IMG/VR virus record: IMGVR_UViG_3300046724_000324
Span: 1 to 40,716 of that record
DNA length: 40,716 bases
Direction: 5' to 3' (one strand)
Origin: a virus
Below are positions 2-24,901 of the stretch, piece by piece. A program made the translations under genes and the position numbers. The notes below the pieces were generated by a model. The model was not told where the DNA came from. It worked only from the letters and a program-made list of their open reading frames with translations, and searched no databases. How positions within the stretch are numbered: position 1 is the first letter of the stretch; each line of letters opens with the position of its first letter.

Positions 2-3000
2 GCTGCCGGCATGGGTGCCTACGAGGGCGTGAAGAACGGCAAGATCGAGGGCTACGGCGTCGCCTTCGCTGAGGGCGCCAAGATGGGCCTCCTGATGATG
101 ATGATGGGGGCCATGGGCCGCAGCACGGAGCGGCTCCTGAACCGGACGATCGGCATCCCGGCCAAGCTCGCTCAGGTTCTGTCTGGAGCTGCTGAGGGTG
201 TCGGCTTCGCCCACCTGGATCCCCACACCTGGGAGCTCGGTTGGCAGTTCCTGAAGAACCCCAACGCCGACACCTTCGCCCCCTACGCCAAGGTCATGGC
301 GATCAACTCGATCGCGATGGCGGCGATCAAGGGCGCCACCGGCACGACCCCTGGCGGCATGGCTGGCGAGGGGCTTCGTGACCTCCGTCAGCAACAGGAG
401 CTGTCCAAGACTGCTGCTGGCGCTGCTGCTCCAGAAGAGGTGGCTGCCTCGGCAACCGAGGCAGGGGTCTCAACAGAGGCCCTGGGAGCTCACGGAGAGG
501 CGCTGCGGCAGCGGGAGGTGACGGCAGGGAAGCTGCCGGAGCAGGCGCTGGAGGCACACCAGCGCGTTCAGGAGACCGGGGAACAGCTCAACCTGGAGCG
601 CACCGGACTTGCTTCCACCGAAGGTGAAAAGCAGGACGTGCGGTTCTCCACCGTGGAGGAGCTGCGGCGGATCAAGGAGATGCCGACTGGCCACGAGAAG
701 AACCAGGCGATTATCGACGCGCTCAACAGGTCGCGTGGGGCCCTGGGCAAGAGCTTCGCCAAGTTCGCCGAGGACGTGGTTCCCAAGGTCATTGGCCGTG
801 AGGAGTTGGAGCGTGCGAAGGAGATCGGCGAGGCTGGGCAGACCATCGCCAAGATGCTGGGGGTGCGCTACCGGCCGCCTGAACGAGGCGTGAACGAGAC
901 TGGAAACGAGCCATCCTCGTTCATTCAGCACGTCGCCAGGGAGACTCCGGGCGAAACGCCCATAGTGAGCTCGGGGGCAGATTCTGAGCGCCTCATGGCA
1001 CGAAGTGAGCCTCGACCCACACAACCTGGCACGCCGGCGTCCCAGCGGATGCAGCCGTCACTCGAGCAGGAAGGCGTGCCAGGCACCGCCAAGATCCGAG
1101 CCAGCGACGTGCTCAGGGACATGCAGGGCTACGAGGGTGACCCGGTGCGCGTCCCCATCCGCCAGGGGGTCGGCGTCAGGGGTCACAGCACCAAGGGCAT
1201 CCTGGGCTGGTTCCACACCCACGAGAACATCGTGCGCATGGAGGGCGCCAGGGACATCGTTACCGGGGCGCACGAGTGGTCACACGCCATGGACCGTGCC
1301 GCTGGCTTCTACTCGGAGGGGGTCAAGGACGTGGCTGGCCTCAAGGCTGCTGCTGCCACCTACCCTGGCTTGGAGAAGCTGCCGGAGAAGTCGCAGCGCA
1401 GCGAGGGTTGGGCTGAGTTCTGGGCACGGCACATGCTCGACGACCCGGACCTCAAGAAGGACACCGGCGCCTTCCACGATGAGGCGATGAAGTGGCTGGC
1501 TCAACCGCAACAGGCTGAGATCCGCGCGCAGGTCGAGAGAGTCCAGAGCTCGCTGCGGCAGTATCGAGACCAAGGTGCGGTGAAGCGCGGTGAGGCGGCG
1601 ATTCACTTCTACGACGACGAGAAGAGCATCCAGGAACTCAAGTCAGTCGGCGTGATGAAGGACACGCTGCCGCACAAGGCCGCTGGCTTCTTCCGAAAGC
1701 TGACCACGGCCTTTCGGAAGGCTGTGACTGACGATCTGGTCGGCCTGAAGAACGCTCAGTTCGAAGCGTTGAAGAGGGAGCTCGGTAGCAAGGAGGCGGC
1801 TCAGAAGGCTCTCGAGGAAACGCCGATCACCGCCAACCCGGCGAGGTTGATGGATGTCTTGAGGATGACCGCCAGCAAGCAGGCCGAGAGGTTCTTGCTG
1901 CACTCCACTCACAACTTGAAGGGTGAGCGCACTGGCATCTCAGGTCAGGAGGCTCTTGGAAGTTTCGACAGTAGGCAGCAGCGAGTCGATTTCGAGAACT
2001 ACCTTCGAGCCAAGCGAGAGCTCGAGGACATCGAGAAGGGCAAAGAGACGACCATCAGCAAGCAGGACAACCTGACGACGGTCGCCAAGCTCGAGACCAA
2101 AGACTTTGTGGATCGTGCCGAGGCGCTGAAGCAATACGACAATCGAGTCATCGACTACGGCACGGAGGGCGGCCTCTGGAGTAACGAGCAAGCTGACGCG
2201 ATCAAGAACGCCTACAAGGTCTACGTGCCGTTCATGCGCTTCCTGGAAGGCCCGAAGGTGATCGCGCCAGGTCGCGGAGTTGCCGAGCGTGGCACCGGGG
2301 TCCGCAGTTCTCACGGTTCGCAGCTCGAGATCGTCGATCCGCTCACCTCGATCGCGGACATGACCAGGAACGTCATCACCAAGGCTCAGCAGAACATGGT
2401 GATGAAGGCGATGGTGAAGTTCGGCCTGCATCACGAAGGCGTTGGCAGCTTCGTCACCGAGGTGAAGCGCGGTCTCCTTCCGAAGGATCACCCGCTCCAG
2501 GAGATCGTCAAGGCTTTGCAGGCTGGTGCGCAGAGCGATCAGGCCTCAATGGCTCTCGACAAGGTTGGCGAGCTCCTCGAGTCGATGGAGAAGGCTGGAG
2601 AGATTGGTGCCATGGTCACCCTCTTCGGCCAACAGACCATCCCGAAGGGGAGCAAGCCGTTGATCGCGCACACGCTTCACCTGACTGAGGAAGAGATCAA
2701 CGAGTTGCCGACCGAACGCGCACAGAAGATGGCTCGAGAGAAGAACGGGAAACTGCTGTGGCTCGAGACCGACCTCGAAGCCTACGACGCGCTGATGGGC
2801 ATCGCATCTCCGCAGAGCTTCGTCGATCTGATGCCGGCCTTCGCCAGAGCGATCGTGGAGAAGCCGGCGAAGTGGTTGCGCGCTGGGGCCACTGTCGCTG
2901 CGCCGGCATTCGCTGCGCGCAACCAGGTCAGAGACGCGATCCAGAATGCGGTCTACTCCGGCGGTGACGGCAACCCAGTGGCAGCTGTAGGTCGCGCAAT

Positions 3001-4318
3001 CAAGGGCGCGATGCAGGTCATCGGTGGGAGTGAGGAATCCCAACTGTGGGACGCTCTTGGTGGCAGTGCGTCCACGTTCCACAGCACGGAGATCGCTGCT
3101 GGAAGGGCAGCTCCGATCCTGAGCGGTGAGTCGCGCGGAGTGATGACCAACCTGAAGTTTGCCTACGGCAAGATGGTCGACGCCATCGGCACACCTGAGT
3201 CGTTCCTCCGCGTCCAGGAGATGAAGATGGCCAGGGACAAGGCGCTGGCGGAGGGCAAGCCGACGCTCGAAGCTAACCTGCTCGGACTCGAGGCTGGCCG
3301 CGAGAGCGGGATCAACTACGCGCGCATGGGATCCCTGGTGCGCGGCCTGAACCGGATCACTCCCTACACCGGCGCCTCGGTCAACGCGACCGGCAAGTTC
3401 CTCCGTCAGCTCAGTGGGGCAGACGGAGGCAATGTCGCCTTGAAGACGATGCTGCGTGGCTTCACTTCGATCACGGTGCCGACCCTGGCGCTGTGGTGGC
3501 TCAACAAAGACAAGGAGTGGTATCAGCAGCTGCCAGAGTGGGAGAGGCTCAACTACTGGCACATCGACCTTCCGTTCGGCATTGGAAGGTTGAAGATCAG
3601 CAAGCCGTTCGAGCTGGGAAGGTTGTTCGGGAACCTGCCAGAGCATGTGTTCGACCTGATGCACGGCAGCAACCCGATGAGCACCGGCAAGGTCATGGGG
3701 GACTTCTTCCAAAGCCTTTTGCCGAACTCGATGATGCCCGCTTTCATGGCTCCGATCGTCGCTGCCTGGGCCAACAAGGATCCGTTCACCGGCAGATCTA
3801 TCGTGCCAGACTGGATGGAGCGCAGTCGGCTGCCGCACGACCAGGTGACCGCCTACACCAGGTGGTATGGCAAGATGCTCTCCGATGCCTTCCTGCTGAC
3901 CGGGCTCGACGTTTCACCGATGCACATCGAGCACTTCACCAACCAGATGACTGGTGGAATGATCGGCCGAGTCAGCGACTTCACCGAGTCAATGGCCGAG
4001 CTTGGTGGGTTCGTGAAGTCTCACGAGCACCTGCACGCCACCGATATCCCTGTGGTCGGCACGATGTTCGGCCGAGGAGACTTCACTCAGAGCCGCGACG
4101 TGCAGAAGATCTTCGATCTTAGTTCGGAGTTCGAACAGAAGGCCGGCAGCAAGCAGCTGACCATCGACGACCGTCGGCAGCAGCACCAGGTCGACATGGC
4201 GAAGAAGCGCATCAGCCTGATCATGGGCCAGGCTAGGGATGGGAAGATCTCTCGCGACGACGCGAACAAGCAAGCCTACGATGTCGCCCACGACGCCCTA
4301 GAAAGGTTCAAACCATGA
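2..4318 (+). CDS. Large polyvalent virion protein with metallopeptidase motif and LPD38-like region (5' partial)
   Basis: The frame is open to the left edge and the first ATG (position 11) has no Shine-Dalgarno sequence, so the N-terminus is probably missing; residues are numbered from that ATG. An HEWSH motif at 421-425 followed by acidic residues at 465 and 469 (SEGWAEFW) fits a zincin-type metallopeptidase. Residues about 936-1200 carry features I associate with the large polyvalent protein-associated domain 38 (LPD38): KWLRAGATVAAPAFAARN, then a TPYTGASVNATGKFL stretch and YQQLPEWERLNYW. Proteins of this kind are thought to travel in the virion and enter the cell with the DNA, carrying several effector domains. 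Residues about 140-340 look low-complexity and linker-like. It is followed by a lipoprotein gene with an ATGA overlap. The family call is from recalled motifs; the peptidase activity is inferred. Confidence 0.75.
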   Translation, partial: AAGMGAYEGVKNGKIEGYGVAFAEGAKMGLLMMMMGAMGRSTERLLNRTIGIPAKLAQVLSGAAEGVGFAHLDPHTWELGWQFLKNPNADTFAPYAKVMAINSIAMAAIKGATGTTPGGMAGEGLRDLRQQQELSKTAAGAAAPEEVAASATEAGVSTEALGAHGEALRQREVTAGKLPEQALEAHQRVQETGEQLNLERTGLASTEGEKQDVRFSTVEELRRIKEMPTGHEKNQAIIDALNRSRGALGKSFAKFAEDVVPKVIGREELERAKEIGEAGQTIAKMLGVRYRPPERGVNETGNEPSSFIQHVARETPGETPIVSSGADSERLMARSEPRPTQPGTPASQRMQPSLEQEGVPGTAKIRASDVLRDMQGYEGDPVRVPIRQGVGVRGHSTKGILGWFHTHENIVRMEGARDIVTGAHEWSHAMDRAAGFYSEGVKDVAGLKAAAATYPGLEKLPEKSQRSEGWAEFWARHMLDDPDLKKDTGAFHDEAMKWLAQPQQAEIRAQVERVQSSLRQYRDQGAVKRGEAAIHFYDDEKSIQELKSVGVMKDTLPHKAAGFFRKLTTAFRKAVTDDLVGLKNAQFEALKRELGSKEAAQKALEETPITANPARLMDVLRMTASKQAERFLLHSTHNLKGERTGISGQEALGSFDSRQQRVDFENYLRAKRELEDIEKGKETTISKQDNLTTVAKLETKDFVDRAEALKQYDNRVIDYGTEGGLWSNEQADAIKNAYKVYVPFMRFLEGPKVIAPGRGVAERGTGVRSSHGSQLEIVDPLTSIADMTRNVITKAQQNMVMKAMVKFGLHHEGVGSFVTEVKRGLLPKDHPLQEIVKALQAGAQSDQASMALDKVGELLESMEKAGEIGAMVTLFGQQTIPKGSKPLIAHTLHLTEEEINELPTERAQKMAREKNGKLLWLETDLEAYDALMGIASPQSFVDLMPAFARAIVEKPAKWLRAGATVAAPAFAARNQVRDAIQNAVYSGGDGNPVAAVGRAIKGAMQVIGGSEESQLWDALGGSASTFHSTEIAAGRAAPILSGESRGVMTNLKFAYGKMVDAIGTPESFLRVQEMKMARDKALAEGKPTLEANLLGLEAGRESGINYARMGSLVRGLNRITPYTGASVNATGKFLRQLSGADGGNVALKTMLRGFTSITVPTLALWWLNKDKEWYQQLPEWERLNYWHIDLPFGIGRLKISKPFELGRLFGNLPEHVFDLMHGSNPMSTGKVMGDFFQSLLPNSMMPAFMAPIVAAWANKDPFTGRSIVPDWMERSRLPHDQVTAYTRWYGKMLSDAFLLTGLDVSPMHIEHFTNQMTGGMIGRVSDFTESMAELGGFVKSHEHLHATDIPVVGTMFGRGDFTQSRDVQKIFDLSSEFEQKAGSKQLTIDDRRQQHQVDMAKKRISLIMGQARDGKISRDDANKQAYDVAHDALERFKP

Positions 4319-14609: not shown

Positions 14610-14794
14610 AGCTTCTCCAAGATGTGCTCGTTGACTGTGCGAATGTATTCGCCTTGTGCGTTGGCAACTTCCCACTGGACGATGATTTGATCACCCTTCC
14701 ACCCGATGACGATGCCACGACAGACTGACTCGTCCTCGAGACCTTTCGGCCTCTTGAACTTGTCCCTCACCACATCACCGATTCTGAGCCTCAC
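14606..14794 (-). CDS. Small SH3/KOW-like beta-barrel protein
   Basis: This 62-residue protein starts with GTG overlapping the stop of the SNF2 gene (GTGA). The pattern 'IGDVVRD...RGIVIGWKGDQIIVQW' is typical of short SH3-like barrel proteins (KOW or Tudor-like). Such proteins often bind nucleic acid or partner proteins. Coupling to the helicase gene suggests an accessory role, which is inference. Confidence 0.6.
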   Translation of the reverse strand: MRLRIGDVVRDKFKRPKGLEDESVCRGIVIGWKGDQIIVQWEVANAQGEYIRTVNEHILEKL

Positions 14795-16749
14795 AGCGCC
14801 TCCACGAGTTGTTGAACCGTCACGTTGCGAAGTGCCTGCTCAGCGTTGGCGTCCTTCGCACTCAACGCCTTGTCGATCATCTTCTCGATCGTGTTGTGCA
14901 CGATCGGAATCTGCACGTTGACCGTGCCCTTGCTGCCGATGCGGTGGCATCGAGCCTCAGCCTGAGCATTGATTGCGGGACTCCAGTCGCGTCCGAGGAA
15001 CAGCACGTCGCTCGCGCTGGTCAGGTTGAACCCCTCCGCCAGCTTCACCTGGCAGAGCATGATGCGCTTCTCCTTGCGGAAGAACGAGTCGAGGAGCAGT
15101 TGGCGGTCGAAGGTGTCGACTGAGCCGACGAGCAGCACTGCCAGCTCCTCATACTTCTTGGCGAGCCAGAGCAACGGCACGTTGAAGCGGCTGAACACCA
15201 CCACCTGTCGGTCGGCGCCGGTGATCTCCTCGATCGCGTCGCAGAGCCACACCAGCTTGGGTGATGCGGGGAACACCAATGCTCCAGGCATGCCGTCGAC
15301 CTTCTCGGCGTGCTTCACCAAGTAGGCAGCGTGCTTGCTGAGATAGGTCTCAGGGATCCCACCGAGGAACCCCTGAGCAATCTGCTCGCAGCGCATTGCG
15401 GCCTCGACCGTCGACCGTGCTGCGGGCTGGAAGATGGTTGTGGTGCGGTTGGTGCACTCGCAGCTCACGATGTCCCTGGGCGCGAGTGGATCGTTCGGGT
15501 CGTCGACTTCGTAGCTGCCTTTCCCTTCGCACTTCGGGCAGCCAGGCAAACCGCTGAGCATCAGCTTCGCCAGCTCGACAACCGCATACTCCTTCATCGC
15601 CTTGTAGACAGAGAGATGTGCGTCCTCGAGCTCGATCAGCGGCTTGGTGTAGATCTTCGGCGGCAGGTCGAGCACGTCTTCCTTCTTCCGCGCCACTCGC
15701 ATCGTGTTGAGCACCGCGTTCAGCTCGGCGACGTTCTTCGTGCCACGCACGATGTTGACCGGCCGCTTGCGACCGTTGAAGGTCGTCGGCACGATCACCA
15801 GGTATCGGTTGCGGAAATCGTGAACGCTTGTCCAACTTCCAGGTCTGACGAACTCGCACTGCGTGAACAGATCCTCGATCGTGTTGCGCACCGGAGTGCC
15901 AGACAGCGCGAGCCTGAACTTCGCTTCGCTGAACAGTTCGAACACCGCTTCGGTTCGCGCTGCGTCGTGGCTCTTGATGTAGTGCGACTCGTCGAGGATC
16001 ACGGCCTGCTCGTCGCACCACGCCTGCAGCAACGCTCGCTGCGGCACTGGCAGCAATCGAAGGCTGTCGTAGTTGATGACGAGGACGGCTCGCTGGTTCT
16101 TCTTCTGGTCGAGGTGATGCGCCAGCGCAGCGAAGGTGTCTGCTCGAGCCGTTGGCGTCCCATCTACGACGAAGCACGGCAGCGCCTCGGGTGGTGCCAG
16201 GGTCACGGCCACCTCGGCTCGCCAGTTGAGCTTCACGCTCTTCGGGCAGACGACGACCAAGCGCCTCCCTGCGGTCCACCACCACGACCATAGCGCCGTG
16301 GCTGTCTTGCCCAGGCCCATGTCGTCGTTCAGCAGGGCTTGGTGGTGGTGCGCTTCGAGCGCCTTGACGGCTTGCCACTGGTGCAGCATGGCCACGCGGC
16401 TCGTGAGCCGTTCGCCTTCGAAGAGGGCAATGGCTACCCGCTCCTGCCGCCCCAGCGCCCGCTCTACCTCCGTCAGGACCGCTACGCACGCCTGCAGCTT
16501 CTCCCTGTCGGAGGGGTGGCATTGGACGGTCCAGGTCGACCGCAGCAGGGGCGCCACGGTGTGGGGCCACAGGCGAGCCCGGTAGAGGGAGCAGGCCGAG
16601 CCGTCCTGCAGCTTCGCCCAGCCAGGCAGCCGCTTCCAGCCCGGCCACCCGCTGACCGTGCGGTGCACCGCGTCGAGGCCCTTCGCCTGCCCGCCCCTGA
16701 GCTCCACGGTGTCGGCGTGAGGCAGGGCGACTTCAACGCGCTCGGTCAT
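14791..16749 (-). CDS. SNF2/SWI2-family DEAD-box helicase
   Basis: This 652-residue protein contains SNF2 ATPase motifs: Walker A DDMGLGKTA (142-150), motif II DESH (253-256), motif III SGTP (283-286), and the C-terminal motif QAEARCHRIG (about 596-605), a version of QAxxRxHRIGQ. A Cys cluster (CPKC...CEC) around residues 400-440 may be a zinc insertion. The ATG at 16749 is preferred over a TTG four codons upstream; GGAT lies shortly before it. SNF2 enzymes translocate on duplex DNA; phage versions are often encoded near primase and PD-(D/E)XK nuclease genes, as here. A role in replication restart, recombination or removal of bound proteins is likely. Confidence 0.9.
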   Translation of the reverse strand: MTERVEVALPHADTVELRGGQAKGLDAVHRTVSGWPGWKRLPGWAKLQDGSACSLYRARLWPHTVAPLLRSTWTVQCHPSDREKLQACVAVLTEVERALGRQERVAIALFEGERLTSRVAMLHQWQAVKALEAHHHQALLNDDMGLGKTATALWSWWWTAGRRLVVVCPKSVKLNWRAEVAVTLAPPEALPCFVVDGTPTARADTFAALAHHLDQKKNQRAVLVINYDSLRLLPVPQRALLQAWCDEQAVILDESHYIKSHDAARTEAVFELFSEAKFRLALSGTPVRNTIEDLFTQCEFVRPGSWTSVHDFRNRYLVIVPTTFNGRKRPVNIVRGTKNVAELNAVLNTMRVARKKEDVLDLPPKIYTKPLIELEDAHLSVYKAMKEYAVVELAKLMLSGLPGCPKCEGKGSYEVDDPNDPLAPRDIVSCECTNRTTTIFQPAARSTVEAAMRCEQIAQGFLGGIPETYLSKHAAYLVKHAEKVDGMPGALVFPASPKLVWLCDAIEEITGADRQVVVFSRFNVPLLWLAKKYEELAVLLVGSVDTFDRQLLLDSFFRKEKRIMLCQVKLAEGFNLTSASDVLFLGRDWSPAINAQAEARCHRIGSKGTVNVQIPIVHNTIEKMIDKALSAKDANAEQALRNVTVQQLVEAL

Positions 16750-16815
16750 GCTTGGATCCAAACTCGCGCAGGGCTCAGTGCAACCGCACCAAGGTCAGCT
16801 CGCAAGCTGCGCGGA

Positions 16816-20965: not shown

Positions 20966-21180
20966 AGCCCAACGAAAAGAACGAGATCAGCCTCAGTTTC
21001 AGCGAGCGGAGGCAGATGCGACTGGAGGAGTTGCTTACTGAGCTAGGTGCGCCGGCCCCATGGACTCACGAATGGCTCAAGTGGAGTCGCGAGAACGCAT
21101 CCAAGGTCACCAACGCCTACAACGAGGCCGAGAAGTGGGCGGAAGAGAACACAAACGTGAGGAAGCGGTTGCAACCGTAG
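20962..21180 (+). CDS. Small helical hypothetical protein
   Basis: This 72-residue protein starts with GTG overlapping the previous stop (GTGA). It is rich in Glu, Lys and Trp and looks entirely helical (WAEENTNVRKRLQP at the end). A longer upstream frame reads through the previous gene and is not used. Function unknown. Confidence 0.6.
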   Translation: MKPNEKNEISLSFSERRQMRLEELLTELGAPAPWTHEWLKWSRENASKVTNAYNEAEKWAEENTNVRKRLQP

Positions 21181-21205
21181 CTGCCACCCGCTACGAGTGG
21201 CAACC

Positions 21206-21571
21206 ATGAGTGAAACGCAAGCTCTCTCGACCCCCACCGACGCTACACCAACTCCGAAAGGCAAGCGCGCGAAGAAGCAGCGGCGCTACCGGCTGTTCCC
21301 TGGCGACGATGGCGGCGACTTTAGGATCTACGTCATCAGCGAAGACCCGGCGCACGCGAAGGGGACGCTGATCCCGGCGCCCGGCGTCGGCGGATTCGAC
21401 TCCACGCACGCAGCGCAGAAGTTCCTGCGCGCTGAGGGCCATCGGTTCGTCGGCCTGCAGCTGATGATCAGCAAGGCCGTGCACATGGCGCGCATCGCGC
21501 TCGAGGAGAAGCCGCAGATCAAGGTCGAGTGGAAGCCGCGCGCGCAGGTCAGTGGGCCGCCGAAGGAGTAG
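21206..21571 (+). CDS. Hypothetical protein
   Basis: This 121-residue protein has a Thr/Pro/Lys-rich, disordered N-terminus (about 1-27) and a globular part with FPGDDGGDFRIYVISEDPAH and GLQLMISKAVHMARIALEEK. ATG at 21206 is preferred; a GTG three codons earlier lies in a TGCCAC/GTGGCA hairpin (21182-21202). No family recognised. Confidence 0.6.
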   Translation: MSETQALSTPTDATPTPKGKRAKKQRRYRLFPGDDGGDFRIYVISEDPAHAKGTLIPAPGVGGFDSTHAAQKFLRAEGHRFVGLQLMISKAVHMARIALEEKPQIKVEWKPRAQVSGPPKE

Positions 21572-21577
21572 CCTGCC

Positions 21578-21916
21578 GTGTCGGTGGTCGATGACATCAT
21601 CGCCGCCGACAAGCTGAAGCCCAACCCGCTCCTGCTCTACGACGTTCTGTCCGCGATCATCGACACCATGGATGCACAACACCCCTTCGACGCGATGCAC
21701 GACAAGAAGCGTGGCCGCCAAGCGGTCACGCCTCGCAGCATGTGGCTCATGGAGCGCGCGCAGTGCCTCGGCGCGGTGATCGACGACACGCTGGCCGAAG
21801 GCAGTGTGGGTGGGGTGGCGGAGCTGACCAGCGAACTGCAGAGCGTGCTCGACATGATCCGCGCTGAGTCGCCGGTCCAAGGCGTTGGACCGATAATGAT
21901 GGGGAGAAGCCGATGA
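21578..21916 (+). CDS. Hypothetical protein
   Basis: This 112-residue protein starts with GTG at 21578, 6 nt after the previous stop. It looks helical (LLLYDVLSAIIDTMDAQHPF; WLMERAQCLGAVIDDTL). Its end overlaps the next gene by ATGA, so it is coupled to the Acb2/Tad1-like gene. Function unknown; coupling to an anti-defence candidate is noteworthy. Confidence 0.6.
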   Translation: MSVVDDIIAADKLKPNPLLLYDVLSAIIDTMDAQHPFDAMHDKKRGRQAVTPRSMWLMERAQCLGAVIDDTLAEGSVGGVAELTSELQSVLDMIRAESPVQGVGPIMMGRSR

Positions 21917-22221
21917 CTGCACCATCCGATCTGCCACCTGGTTCGATCATCGAGATCAAGGACCGGCCGCTGCTCGTCCGCAAGCCAACGGACGCCGAGC
22001 TGCGCAACAGGTTCTTCTACCACCCGCCGACCGCGGACACGCTGCCGCGGTTCGCCGCGGTGAACGAAGCTTGCTTCACGCTGGCGAAGCTGCTCCGCGA
22101 CACGGTGCCAGAAGGCCGCGGTCTCTCGTTGGCGCTGACGCGCCTCGAGGATGTGCGCATGCGCGCGAACTTCGGCATCGCCACGGAGACGAGCGAAGCA
22201 GTGACGCCGGTGAAGCCGTGA
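21913..22221 (+). CDS. Acb2/Tad1-like cyclic-nucleotide sponge (anti-CBASS/anti-Thoeris candidate)
   Basis: This 102-residue protein contains the pattern I associate with the Acb2/Tad1 hairpin domain: RNRFFYHPPTADTLPRF (residues 31-47), then a helix (ACFTLAKLLRDTVPEG) and SLALTRLEDVRMRANFGIA (72-90). The family consensus as I recall it has 'RFxYHPP...RSLALTxLEEAxMWANAxIA'; here MWANA has become MRANF. Acb2-type proteins bind the cyclic nucleotide messengers of CBASS, and Tad1-type proteins the messenger of Thoeris, keeping the defence silent. The 30-residue N-terminal segment looks extra. It lies in the first genes of the rightward operon, fitting early expression. Which ligand is bound cannot be told from sequence alone. 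Confidence 0.8.
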   Translation: MTAPSDLPPGSIIEIKDRPLLVRKPTDAELRNRFFYHPPTADTLPRFAAVNEACFTLAKLLRDTVPEGRGLSLALTRLEDVRMRANFGIATETSEAVTPVKP

Positions 22222-22224
22222 GCT

Positions 22225-22962
22225 ATGGCCAAAAAGGTCGACACGCAGATCCTCGACCCGAAGGCCAAGGACAAGCTCGAGCAAGCGGCGGCCGCGGTCG
22301 GTCTCTCGTTCCAGCAGCTGGTCGAGCTCGTCTCTGACAGCGGCGCGCTCGCCTCTCCGCCAGCTAAGGACAAGGATGGGTTCACGCCGACGATCACCAT
22401 GCGTGACCTCGGTCGGCGGATGTGGACCGAGCTCCAGATCACGCAGCGGCCGGAGCGAGCCAAGTGGTTCACGACGCTGCTGCGGCCGCAACAGGTCGCG
22501 CTGATCGTCACGCTGCGCGAGCAGGGCTACCGCAGCGAGGTCATCGGCCACGAGCTGCAGATGGACCCGCTCGAGGTGGCGCGGCTGTTCAACGAGCATG
22601 CCGACAACATCGGCGCGCAGGTGAGTCAGATCCGGCTCAACACCCTTGCCGGTCACATCCAACTCGCCTACGAGCGAGCGCAGCAGGGCTTGATCGAGCA
22701 GGAGGAGTGGGCCGCCTACTTTAGGGTGACCAAGGAGATGGTAGGCCTGCTCCAGTCGCTCGGCATCGTCGACAGCGCGGTGCGCCGCGTCGAGGTGACG
22801 CACAACGTCAACTTCGGCGAGCAGCAGAAGGCCGAGGTCGAGGCGATGGTGCAGCTCGAGCTGAAGAAGAAGAAGCGCATCGAAGAGATCAAGCAGGCCG
22901 ACTTCGTGATGATCGATACCGTCAAGGGCCTGAAACTCGAAGGCGAAGGAGAGACCAAGTGA
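22225..22962 (+). CDS. Putative terminase small subunit
   Basis: This 245-residue protein precedes the large terminase by one small gene, the usual place for the small subunit. The middle (about 75-140) reads like a helix-turn-helix DNA-binding region (QQVALIVTLREQGYRSEVIG then HELQMDPLEVARLFNEH), and the C-terminal third is helical and charged (VEAMVQLELKKKKRIEEIKQ). It would recognise phage DNA and stimulate packaging. I assign it by position and fold features; no diagnostic motif exists for this group. Confidence 0.55.
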   Translation: MAKKVDTQILDPKAKDKLEQAAAAVGLSFQQLVELVSDSGALASPPAKDKDGFTPTITMRDLGRRMWTELQITQRPERAKWFTTLLRPQQVALIVTLREQGYRSEVIGHELQMDPLEVARLFNEHADNIGAQVSQIRLNTLAGHIQLAYERAQQGLIEQEEWAAYFRVTKEMVGLLQSLGIVDSAVRRVEVTHNVNFGEQQKAEVEAMVQLELKKKKRIEEIKQADFVMIDTVKGLKLEGEGETK

Positions 22963-23186
22963 CCGTGATCGCACACAAGACCAAGTTCCTCGGCATCGGC
23001 GTTCCTTCGAGACCAGGCAAGTGCCCGCACTGCAGCAACGAGATGCCGGTGGACTCGGCGGCCTTCTGCGACGAGGAGAAGTGGCTCGGCTACGCCACGC
23101 TGTTCTGCTCCGAGGAGTGTCTGCAGGCTGGTCACTTGGTCATGGCCAAGGAGCATCACGTCGGTGGGCACATGATCAAGTGGTGA
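22959..23186 (+). CDS. Zinc-binding microprotein
   Basis: This 75-residue protein has CPHC (Cys22, 25), Cys37, and a C-terminal FCSEEC (Cys50, 54), an MYM/FCS-like zinc site. GTG start overlaps the preceding TGA (GTGA), and its own TGA overlaps the terminase ATG by one base. Function unknown; being wedged between the two terminase genes suggests a packaging role. Confidence 0.6.
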   Translation: MTVIAHKTKFLGIGVPSRPGKCPHCSNEMPVDSAAFCDEEKWLGYATLFCSEECLQAGHLVMAKEHHVGGHMIKW

Positions 23187-24901
23187 TGGAAGAGTCGACC
23201 CTAACGCTGGAGCAGCTTCGCACCGAGCGGTTGAGCCGGGAGCGCGACTACTACACCTCGGACGAGGGCTTCCTCGACTTCGTGCGCGACAGCGGCGCGG
23301 CGCCGGACGCTGAGTGGCAGCCGCACGGTCGCTACGCGCAGTCGCTCGTCACCTGGCAGGGCGACCCGGACCCGGACAACCAGGAGATCACCAACTTCAA
23401 GTCGAAGATGGCGCTCTGGCCGCGCGGCTCCTTCAAGAGCCAGGTGTTCACGATCGGCCAGGCGGCGTGGCTGATCGCGCGTGATCCTAACATCCGCATC
23501 CTGATCTGTTCGGAGACCGCGCGTCAGGCGCAGAAGTTCGCCGCCGAAGTGATGAAGATCGTGGACAGCCAGTGGTTCCGCGATCGGTTCGGCGTGCACC
23601 GCGGCGACAAGTGGAAGGAGGCTTCCGGCGTCTTCTACTCGGCGCTGCGCACTCGGCAGGGCATCAAGGATCCGACGCTGGCCTCGTCGGGCGTCGGCGA
23701 AGTGCAGACCGGCGCGCACTGGGACGTTGTTCTCATGGACGACGTTTGCTCGCAGGAGAACACCAAGACGCCGGAGTCGATCGACTCACTGTGGTCGTGG
23801 TTCTCCGAGGTGCAGTCGCAGCTCGACCCCGGCACCAAGCTCTTCGTCATCGGCACGCTCCACCACTACAACGACATCTACTGTCGCATCATCAAGGATC
23901 CGGCGATCGCCGCGACCTTCGAGATCAGCAAGCACGCATGGTGCGAGCCGCTGGTGGATCCGCGAGGCAAGGATCCGACGACGCTCTTCTTCCCGAAGAG
24001 GCTAACGCGCGCGTTCATCGCCGACCGCAAGGTGAAGCAGGTGCCGCGCCTGTTCGCGTGCTTCTACGAGAACAAGCCGCAGACCGGCGACGACCAGATC
24101 TTCCACGAGGACTACTTCCACGTCATCCGCGATCAGGACGTGCCCGGTTCTGTGTGGACCTACGTGCTCACGGACTTCGCGTTCACAGCCGACGAGAAGA
24201 AGTCGAAGTCCAAGTCGGACCGCTGCTGCTTCTGGGTGGTGAGTCTAGACTGCAACCGCACCGCCTACGTGCGCGACCTCTACATCGGTCGCTGGCGGCC
24301 TTCGGATTCCTGCCGGATCGTGTGTGACTTGTGGACCAGGTTCCAGCCGCTCAACGTGAAGGGCGTCGGCGTCGAGAAGACGACGCACAAGGAACTCCTC
24401 ATGTCGCTGTTCGAGGAGGTGCGTCGACAGACCTTCATCCGGCCGCGCTTCATCGAGATCGCTGGGCGCAACCAGGAGATCAAGGACATCAGGATCGAGT
24501 CGATCGAGCCGCGCTTCCGCGGTGGCAACATCTACTTCACCGAGTTCGTGCGTCAGCAGTTCGCCACGAAGTGGAAGCCGATGCTCGACGAGATGACCGA
24601 GTGGCCGTTCAGCGCGAACGACGACATCCCAGACGCGATCAGCGACCTCGACAAGGTGGACGACTCGGGCAAGTTCTACTTCCCTGGGCCGCCGCCTGGG
24701 TGGACACCACTCGAGGTGAAGCGATTCACACCACCGACGGTCGACGGGCGCTATAACCCCGAAGCCAAGTATCCAGCGCGCGAGTTCACCAAGAACAAGG
24801 AGCATGATCTGTGGGGCAGCAAGAACAGCGATTCCGCACCGGGAAGCCTCTTCCGCGGAACCTCCAACCAGTCAAATCGCGACATCTTCGGCCCGCAGTA
24901 G
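23186..24901 (+). CDS. terL: Terminase large subunit
   Basis: This 571-residue ATPase-nuclease shows an atypical Walker A (PRGSFKS, 79-85), Walker B VVLMDDV (181-187) and a coupling motif GTLHHYND (223-230). The RNase H-like nuclease half has Asp330 (YVLTDFAF), Glu397 (GVGVEKTT) and Asp480/Asp483 (NDDIPDAISDLD). It drives DNA into the prohead and cuts it. The ATG overlaps the previous stop (TGATG); a longer frame upstream is a shadow of the microprotein. Family and role are well supported. Confidence 0.9.
   Translation: MEESTLTLEQLRTERLSRERDYYTSDEGFLDFVRDSGAAPDAEWQPHGRYAQSLVTWQGDPDPDNQEITNFKSKMALWPRGSFKSQVFTIGQAAWLIARDPNIRILICSETARQAQKFAAEVMKIVDSQWFRDRFGVHRGDKWKEASGVFYSALRTRQGIKDPTLASSGVGEVQTGAHWDVVLMDDVCSQENTKTPESIDSLWSWFSEVQSQLDPGTKLFVIGTLHHYNDIYCRIIKDPAIAATFEISKHAWCEPLVDPRGKDPTTLFFPKRLTRAFIADRKVKQVPRLFACFYENKPQTGDDQIFHEDYFHVIRDQDVPGSVWTYVLTDFAFTADEKKSKSKSDRCCFWVVSLDCNRTAYVRDLYIGRWRPSDSCRIVCDLWTRFQPLNVKGVGVEKTTHKELLMSLFEEVRRQTFIRPRFIEIAGRNQEIKDIRIESIEPRFRGGNIYFTEFVRQQFATKWKPMLDEMTEWPFSANDDIPDAISDLDKVDDSGKFYFPGPPPGWTPLEVKRFTPPTVDGRYNPEAKYPAREFTKNKEHDLWGSKNSDSAPGSLFRGTSNQSNRDIFGPQ

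Follow-up and report, generated by a model that had tools for sequence, protein, structure and literature searches.

The window, a stretch of 40,716 bases that constitutes a virus record without an attached host genome, contains a short open reading frame that raises the question whether this virus encodes a sponge for defence signals and, if so, for which class of signals. Other genes of the window match families of the terminase large subunit, the portal and the major head protein as well as the helicase, primase and Holliday junction resolvase families, and these matches to terminase, portal, head and replication families identify the window as DNA of a tailed phage. At the DNA level, the region from position 21000 to 24000 matched none of the named phages. 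The features at the locus, which lies upstream of the terminase gene, are the following:

21578-21916 (+): fast-evolving companion gene, overlapping the sponge gene by 4 nt and with homologues in three related phages
21901-21906 (+): GGGGAG, a probable ribosome-binding site read from the sequence, 6 nt 5' of the ATG
21913-22221 (+): candidate sponge gene of the Acb2/Tad1 hairpin family, 102 aa (PF24729, phrog_1454, AF2 fold, dN/dS)
21913-21981 (+): N-terminal extension, codons 1-23, apparently private to the window genome (absent from the three closest phages, pLDDT about 50)

The open reading frame at 21913-22221 (+) is a real gene. It has a GC3 value of 0.84, a coding level like that of its neighbours, and its start overlaps the preceding gene. 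Its conserved core is under purifying selection, with dN/dS values of about 0.15-0.3 in comparison with three relatives. The motifs RNRFFYHPP and SLALTRLEDVRMRANFGIA, on which a sequence-only reading had based the proposal of an inhibitor of CBASS or Thoeris signalling, were found exactly as quoted, as were the coordinates. Since no other ATG, GTG or TTG start is present 5' of the conserved core, translation of the gene would include the extension.

Membership in the Acb2/Tad1 hairpin family, previously proposed from the motifs, was borne out by profile searches, as the 102-aa protein matches the Pfam family PF24729 (Acb2_Tad1_hairpin) with an E-value of 2.9e-11 and 43.8 bits, compared with a curated cut-off of 27 bits, and phrog_1454 with an E-value of 1.1e-16. 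The Vs.4 protein of phage T4 and Tad1 of SBSphiJ7 match PF24729 as well. The family is large, with relatives of the sponge protein in 117 phage records and in at least 427 viral stretches, yet its branch phrog_1454 is filed by PHROGs under unknown function. A phmmer search with the single protein against PDB chains gave no match and profiles were needed; with profiles built from the relatives, Acb2 homolog 43 (PDB 9ptq) was the top solved match (E-value 4e-8), followed by Tad1 chains. Acb2 homolog 43 has PEGREKS...TKLEEAM in common with the window protein and differs from it by Lys at position 51, Met at 82 and Thr at 36; no paper on this structure was found. Models of NCBIfam and PADLOC did not match the sponge protein. 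A PADLOC match to the SNF2-type defence helicases ZorD and DpdE was obtained elsewhere in the window, for the helicase gene at 14791-16761 (-), which also matches phrog_62 and is most likely an ordinary phage helicase. A further open reading frame of 1435 aa at 11-4318 (+) matches phrog_9854, listed as unknown function, in its C-terminal part.

An AF2 model of the core, built with 77 sequences, reached a pLDDT of 89 and predicts a short N-terminal helix followed by two long antiparallel helices (residues 27-34, 44-64 and 69-90). The Acb2 protomer has been described with the same layout (PMC10419184), and the predicted fold of the 102-aa protein is accordingly that of an Acb2 protomer. The Acb2 proteins of known structure (T4 Vs.4, PDB 7uq2; p26, PDB 8h2j and 8h2x) belong to the same Pfam hairpin family and likewise consist of a short N-terminal helix and two long helices; the window protein differs from them by a shorter loop between the long helices, by R69 and by the extension. 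In a Foldseek search Vs.4 was top-ranked, but with an E-value of about 0.9 and a Z-score of 6.5 it was tied with unrelated hairpins; fold searches of the PDB are crowded by generic helical hairpins, weak E-values are expected for such folds, and the searches support the predicted fold without proving it. As judged from the profiles and the model, the 102-aa protein adds a new member to the Acb2-type branch within the hairpin family.

The N-terminal extension had been estimated at 30 residues; it is real, but measures 23 residues relative to the closest kin. In the three closest phages, whose terminases are identical to that of the window at 99% in two cases and 87% in one, the core begins at M(T)KPTE without any extension. 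The extension gave no match to phages at an E-value of 10 and no convincing one among the fetched loci, and it was modelled with low confidence. It looks like a private addition.

The same N-terminal region bears on the choice between CBASS and Thoeris. A Tad1-like sponge of cADPR isomers, blocking Thoeris, would be compatible with the common hairpin family and with the second half of the hairpin, where the window protein has the R...AxT...EEALMW pattern (R...ALT...EEALMW-like) in common with Tad1 (SBSphiJ7; CbTad1, PDB 7uav and 8kbf). Tad1, however, possesses a long N-terminal region and lacks an FxYHPP segment, whereas the window protein shows the FxYHPP segment and the short N-terminal helix of the Acb2 type but no counterpart of that region: roughly 85-90 residues precede the hairpin in SBSphiJ7 Tad1, the annotated form of which enters the Pfam model only in its second half, compared with the 23-residue low-confidence extension. 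Loops of the N-terminal region of Tad1 help to build the gcADPR pocket (PMC12043709). We consider a Tad1-like sponge highly improbable. Since the N-terminal domain of Tad1 is absent, the designation 'CBASS-type sponge' fits better than 'Thoeris sponge'; a role of the window protein against Thoeris is unlikely, and the Thoeris half of the original proposal is weakly supported.

The ligand pocket was compared with that of Vs.4, using residue equivalences from Pfam, HMM and MAFFT alignments. In the complex of Vs.4 with cGAMP, Y8 and F82 stack on the ligand, hydrogen bonds and salt bridges are contributed by Y8, H11, K23 and R79, and the exchange S74N disturbs cGAMP contacts (PMC10097602). The relevant codons of the window gene are:

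22018-22020 (+): Y36, equivalent of the cGAMP-stacking Y8 of Vs.4
22063-22065 (+): N51, corresponding to K23 of Vs.4; 64 of 76 relatives have Arg here
22117-22119 (+): R69, near-invariant in the family and coupled with position 76
22138-22140 (+): T76, corresponding to T68 of Vs.4, near-invariant across the family and coupled with position 69
22156-22158 (+): R82, the relocated basic residue, at the position of S74 in Vs.4
22162-22173 (+): R84-A-N-F87, covering RANF of the altered motif; most relatives carry W84 and A87

The stacking tyrosine is kept as Y36, at a position occupied by Y, F, H or W throughout the comparison of 76 relatives, whereas N51, the equivalent of K23, carries no basic residue; the basic residue is found at position 82 instead. 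W76, R79 and F82 of Vs.4 correspond to R84, F87 and A90, and nearly all members of phrog_1454 likewise lack counterparts of R79 and F82. The positions of the Vs.4 hexamer interface are partly kept, with L29, A66 and A77 retained as L57, A74 and A85 and with V81 in place of A73. The replacement of the usual MWANA by MRANF, noticed by the sequence-only reading, is evident from the 76 relatives, of which 61 have W and nine have R at position 84, while 70 have A and four have F at position 87. Judged from the alignments, the MRANF change is part of a clade with a putatively reorganised pocket. The suggestion that the divergence matters thus gained support, although the main difference appears to lie elsewhere than in MRANF, in a basic residue moved from position 51 to position 82.

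Positions 51 and 82 follow a strict rule. The majority of the family has Arg at 51, and sequences with N, S, T or G there carry Arg at 82. A first count of 126 distinct sequences yielded a basic residue at 51 in 105 and at 82 in 21, with no other state. A follow-up scan searched viral contigs for DNA that encodes R82-M-W-A-N while leaving position 51 unconstrained: all 11 contigs with Arg82 have N, S or G at 51, and a twelfth contig combines Ser82 with Arg51. Altogether, 133 distinct relatives comprise 105 with basic 51 and 28 with basic 82, and none with both or neither; the patterns of the main family scan span neither position. A T4-like set of 36 sequences, including p26, has K at position 51 in every case and no basic residue at 82 wherever this position is readable. 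Of 1711 pairs in a coupling analysis, 51-82 ranked first when the alphabet was reduced and second under the full alphabet, the other top pair being 69-76. On a tree computed after removal of the trait columns, the 51/82 label switches six times, at least three switches being forced by supported branches, and a formal sign test of co-change had too few independent pairs for significance. Both positions lie at one level of the hairpin, since 51 and 82 add up to 133 just as the residues at the helix ends, 64 and 69, do. Most simply, the pocket would require a single arginine, and this arginine can come from either helix. The interpretation of N51 as the mark of a dead pocket was rejected, as R82 is present whenever position 51 loses its charge. 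By these alignments the rule appears to split the phrog_1454 branch into two classes and to place the window protein, with N51, R84 and F87, in the R82 minority clade. A subfamily of the domain (L155, L164, L173, L176 and L180) lacks R69 and T76 and has Arg at position 76, which may represent another exchange of an arginine, here at the second of the conserved sites.

From the profile matches, the model and the analogy with Vs.4, the gene probably encodes an Acb2-type cyclic-oligonucleotide sponge directed against CBASS-like signals, with R82 as the basic residue of its pocket. Such a sponge would bind the cyclic oligonucleotide alarm signals of CBASS-like defence without degrading them, and sequestration of the signals would keep the defence effectors off. 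By analogy with Vs.4/Acb2 the protein would assemble into a hexamer, in whose inter-subunit pockets the ligand may sit flanked by Y36 and a basic residue that grips its phosphate; in the R82 clade this grip would be provided by R82 on the second long helix, replacing Lys or Arg 51 on the first. We infer the hexamer, the ligand class, the contact of R82 with phosphate and the action against CBASS from these likenesses. Against this reading, many of the residues known to contact cGAMP are missing (N51, F87, A90). The original observation is confirmed and its interpretation partly supported.

Acb2 and Tad1 are reported to bind trinucleotides at a separate site at the trimer interface (PMC12043709), which raises the alternative of a sponge mainly for cyclic trinucleotides, with the dinucleotide pocket altered or lost and R69 and T76 binding cA3-like signals of CBASS or type III CRISPR systems. 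R69 and T76 are the best-kept positions and form the other top coupled pair, and the R...ALT motif is common to the window protein and Tad1. The conservation of Y36 and of the exchanged 51/82 arginine nevertheless suggests that the dinucleotide pocket is still selected, and it is we who infer the role of R69 and T76 as the trinucleotide site; we regard this alternative as unlikely.

Rather doubtful is the idea that the R82 clade represents a separate class of sponges for a different cyclic nucleotide, diversified further by tandem duplication and possibly evading Panoptes-like sensing of sponges. Panoptes detects phages via Acb2: once its decoy nucleotides are sequestered, a toxic effector is released, and phages whose acb2 has been disabled escape it (PMC12657218); this cost is a possible reason for pocket turnover in the Acb2/Tad1 hairpin family. 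Under the separate-class reading the relocated arginine would, together with R84 and F87, reshape the pocket, and duplication may keep the binding of CBASS signals while avoiding Panoptes. The 51/82 rule provides a marker of the ligand pocket that is readable from sequence and, should the two classes differ in the signals that they bind, this single residue pair would help to predict the defence that a phage evades.

A tandem duplication is present in the related phage L002, whose terminase is 99% identical to that of the window and which carries two adjacent sponge copies (L002:4319-4561 and L002:4571-4816). The second copy is 71% identical to the window protein and retains R82 but has Y36 replaced by D, R69 by I and T76 by M, the last exchange corresponding to T68M of Vs.4, which is reported to lower binding of T4 Acb2 in Bas35 (PMC12657230). 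Its dN/dS value relative to the first copy is 0.63, compared with 0.15-0.32 for the other copies, a figure that comes from short sequences and to which an indel near the end adds noise. The second copy may be a decayed or repurposed partner, and it provides a natural test case for the retention of a non-binding partner by phages. This copy without Y36, R69 and T76, together with N51, R84, F87 and A90, which depart from the known contact residues, would fit the view that the window protein is itself a decayed, inactive sponge. The window copy, however, retains Y36, R69, T76 and R82 under purifying selection, and many phages carry the R82 class, so that decay of the window protein is most improbable.

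The companion gene may encode a partner of the sponge. Its homologues, found in all three related phages, are 28-45% identical and overlap the sponge gene by 4 nt in every case; a search of the gene against Pfam gave no match. The slot between two conserved genes (window 21578-22224, L001:4798-5542, L002:4053-5018, L003:4744-5602) differs among near-identical phages, with the extension in the window, an additional 81-aa open reading frame in L001, and the second sponge copy and a QSregVF_b (PF12843) gene in L002.

The location upstream of the terminase gene in the window, and near the terminase in some mycobacteriophages, could also point to a packaging or regulatory protein with the same hairpin but without a counter-defence role. 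This position is not fixed, since relatives elsewhere adjoin genes for portal and RNA ligase, SSB, RecA-like, WhiB or tail proteins, and the strongest coupling is seen at positions located at the ligand in Vs.4; such a role is very unlikely. A scan of genome contigs yielded only two distant relatives, in the BMS3Bbin02 assembly and in a Planctomycetota MAG, and a SMODS (CD-NTase) match in the latter but not in the former says nothing firm about the host of the window phage. In cyanophage S-2L an open family member without CDS annotation is located 5' of the annotated tail assembly gene (L008:3001-3204), and a 195-aa protein of mycobacteriophage MalagasyRose, encoded directly 5' of the terminase small subunit gene, contains the hairpin as one of its domains (L010:922-1509).
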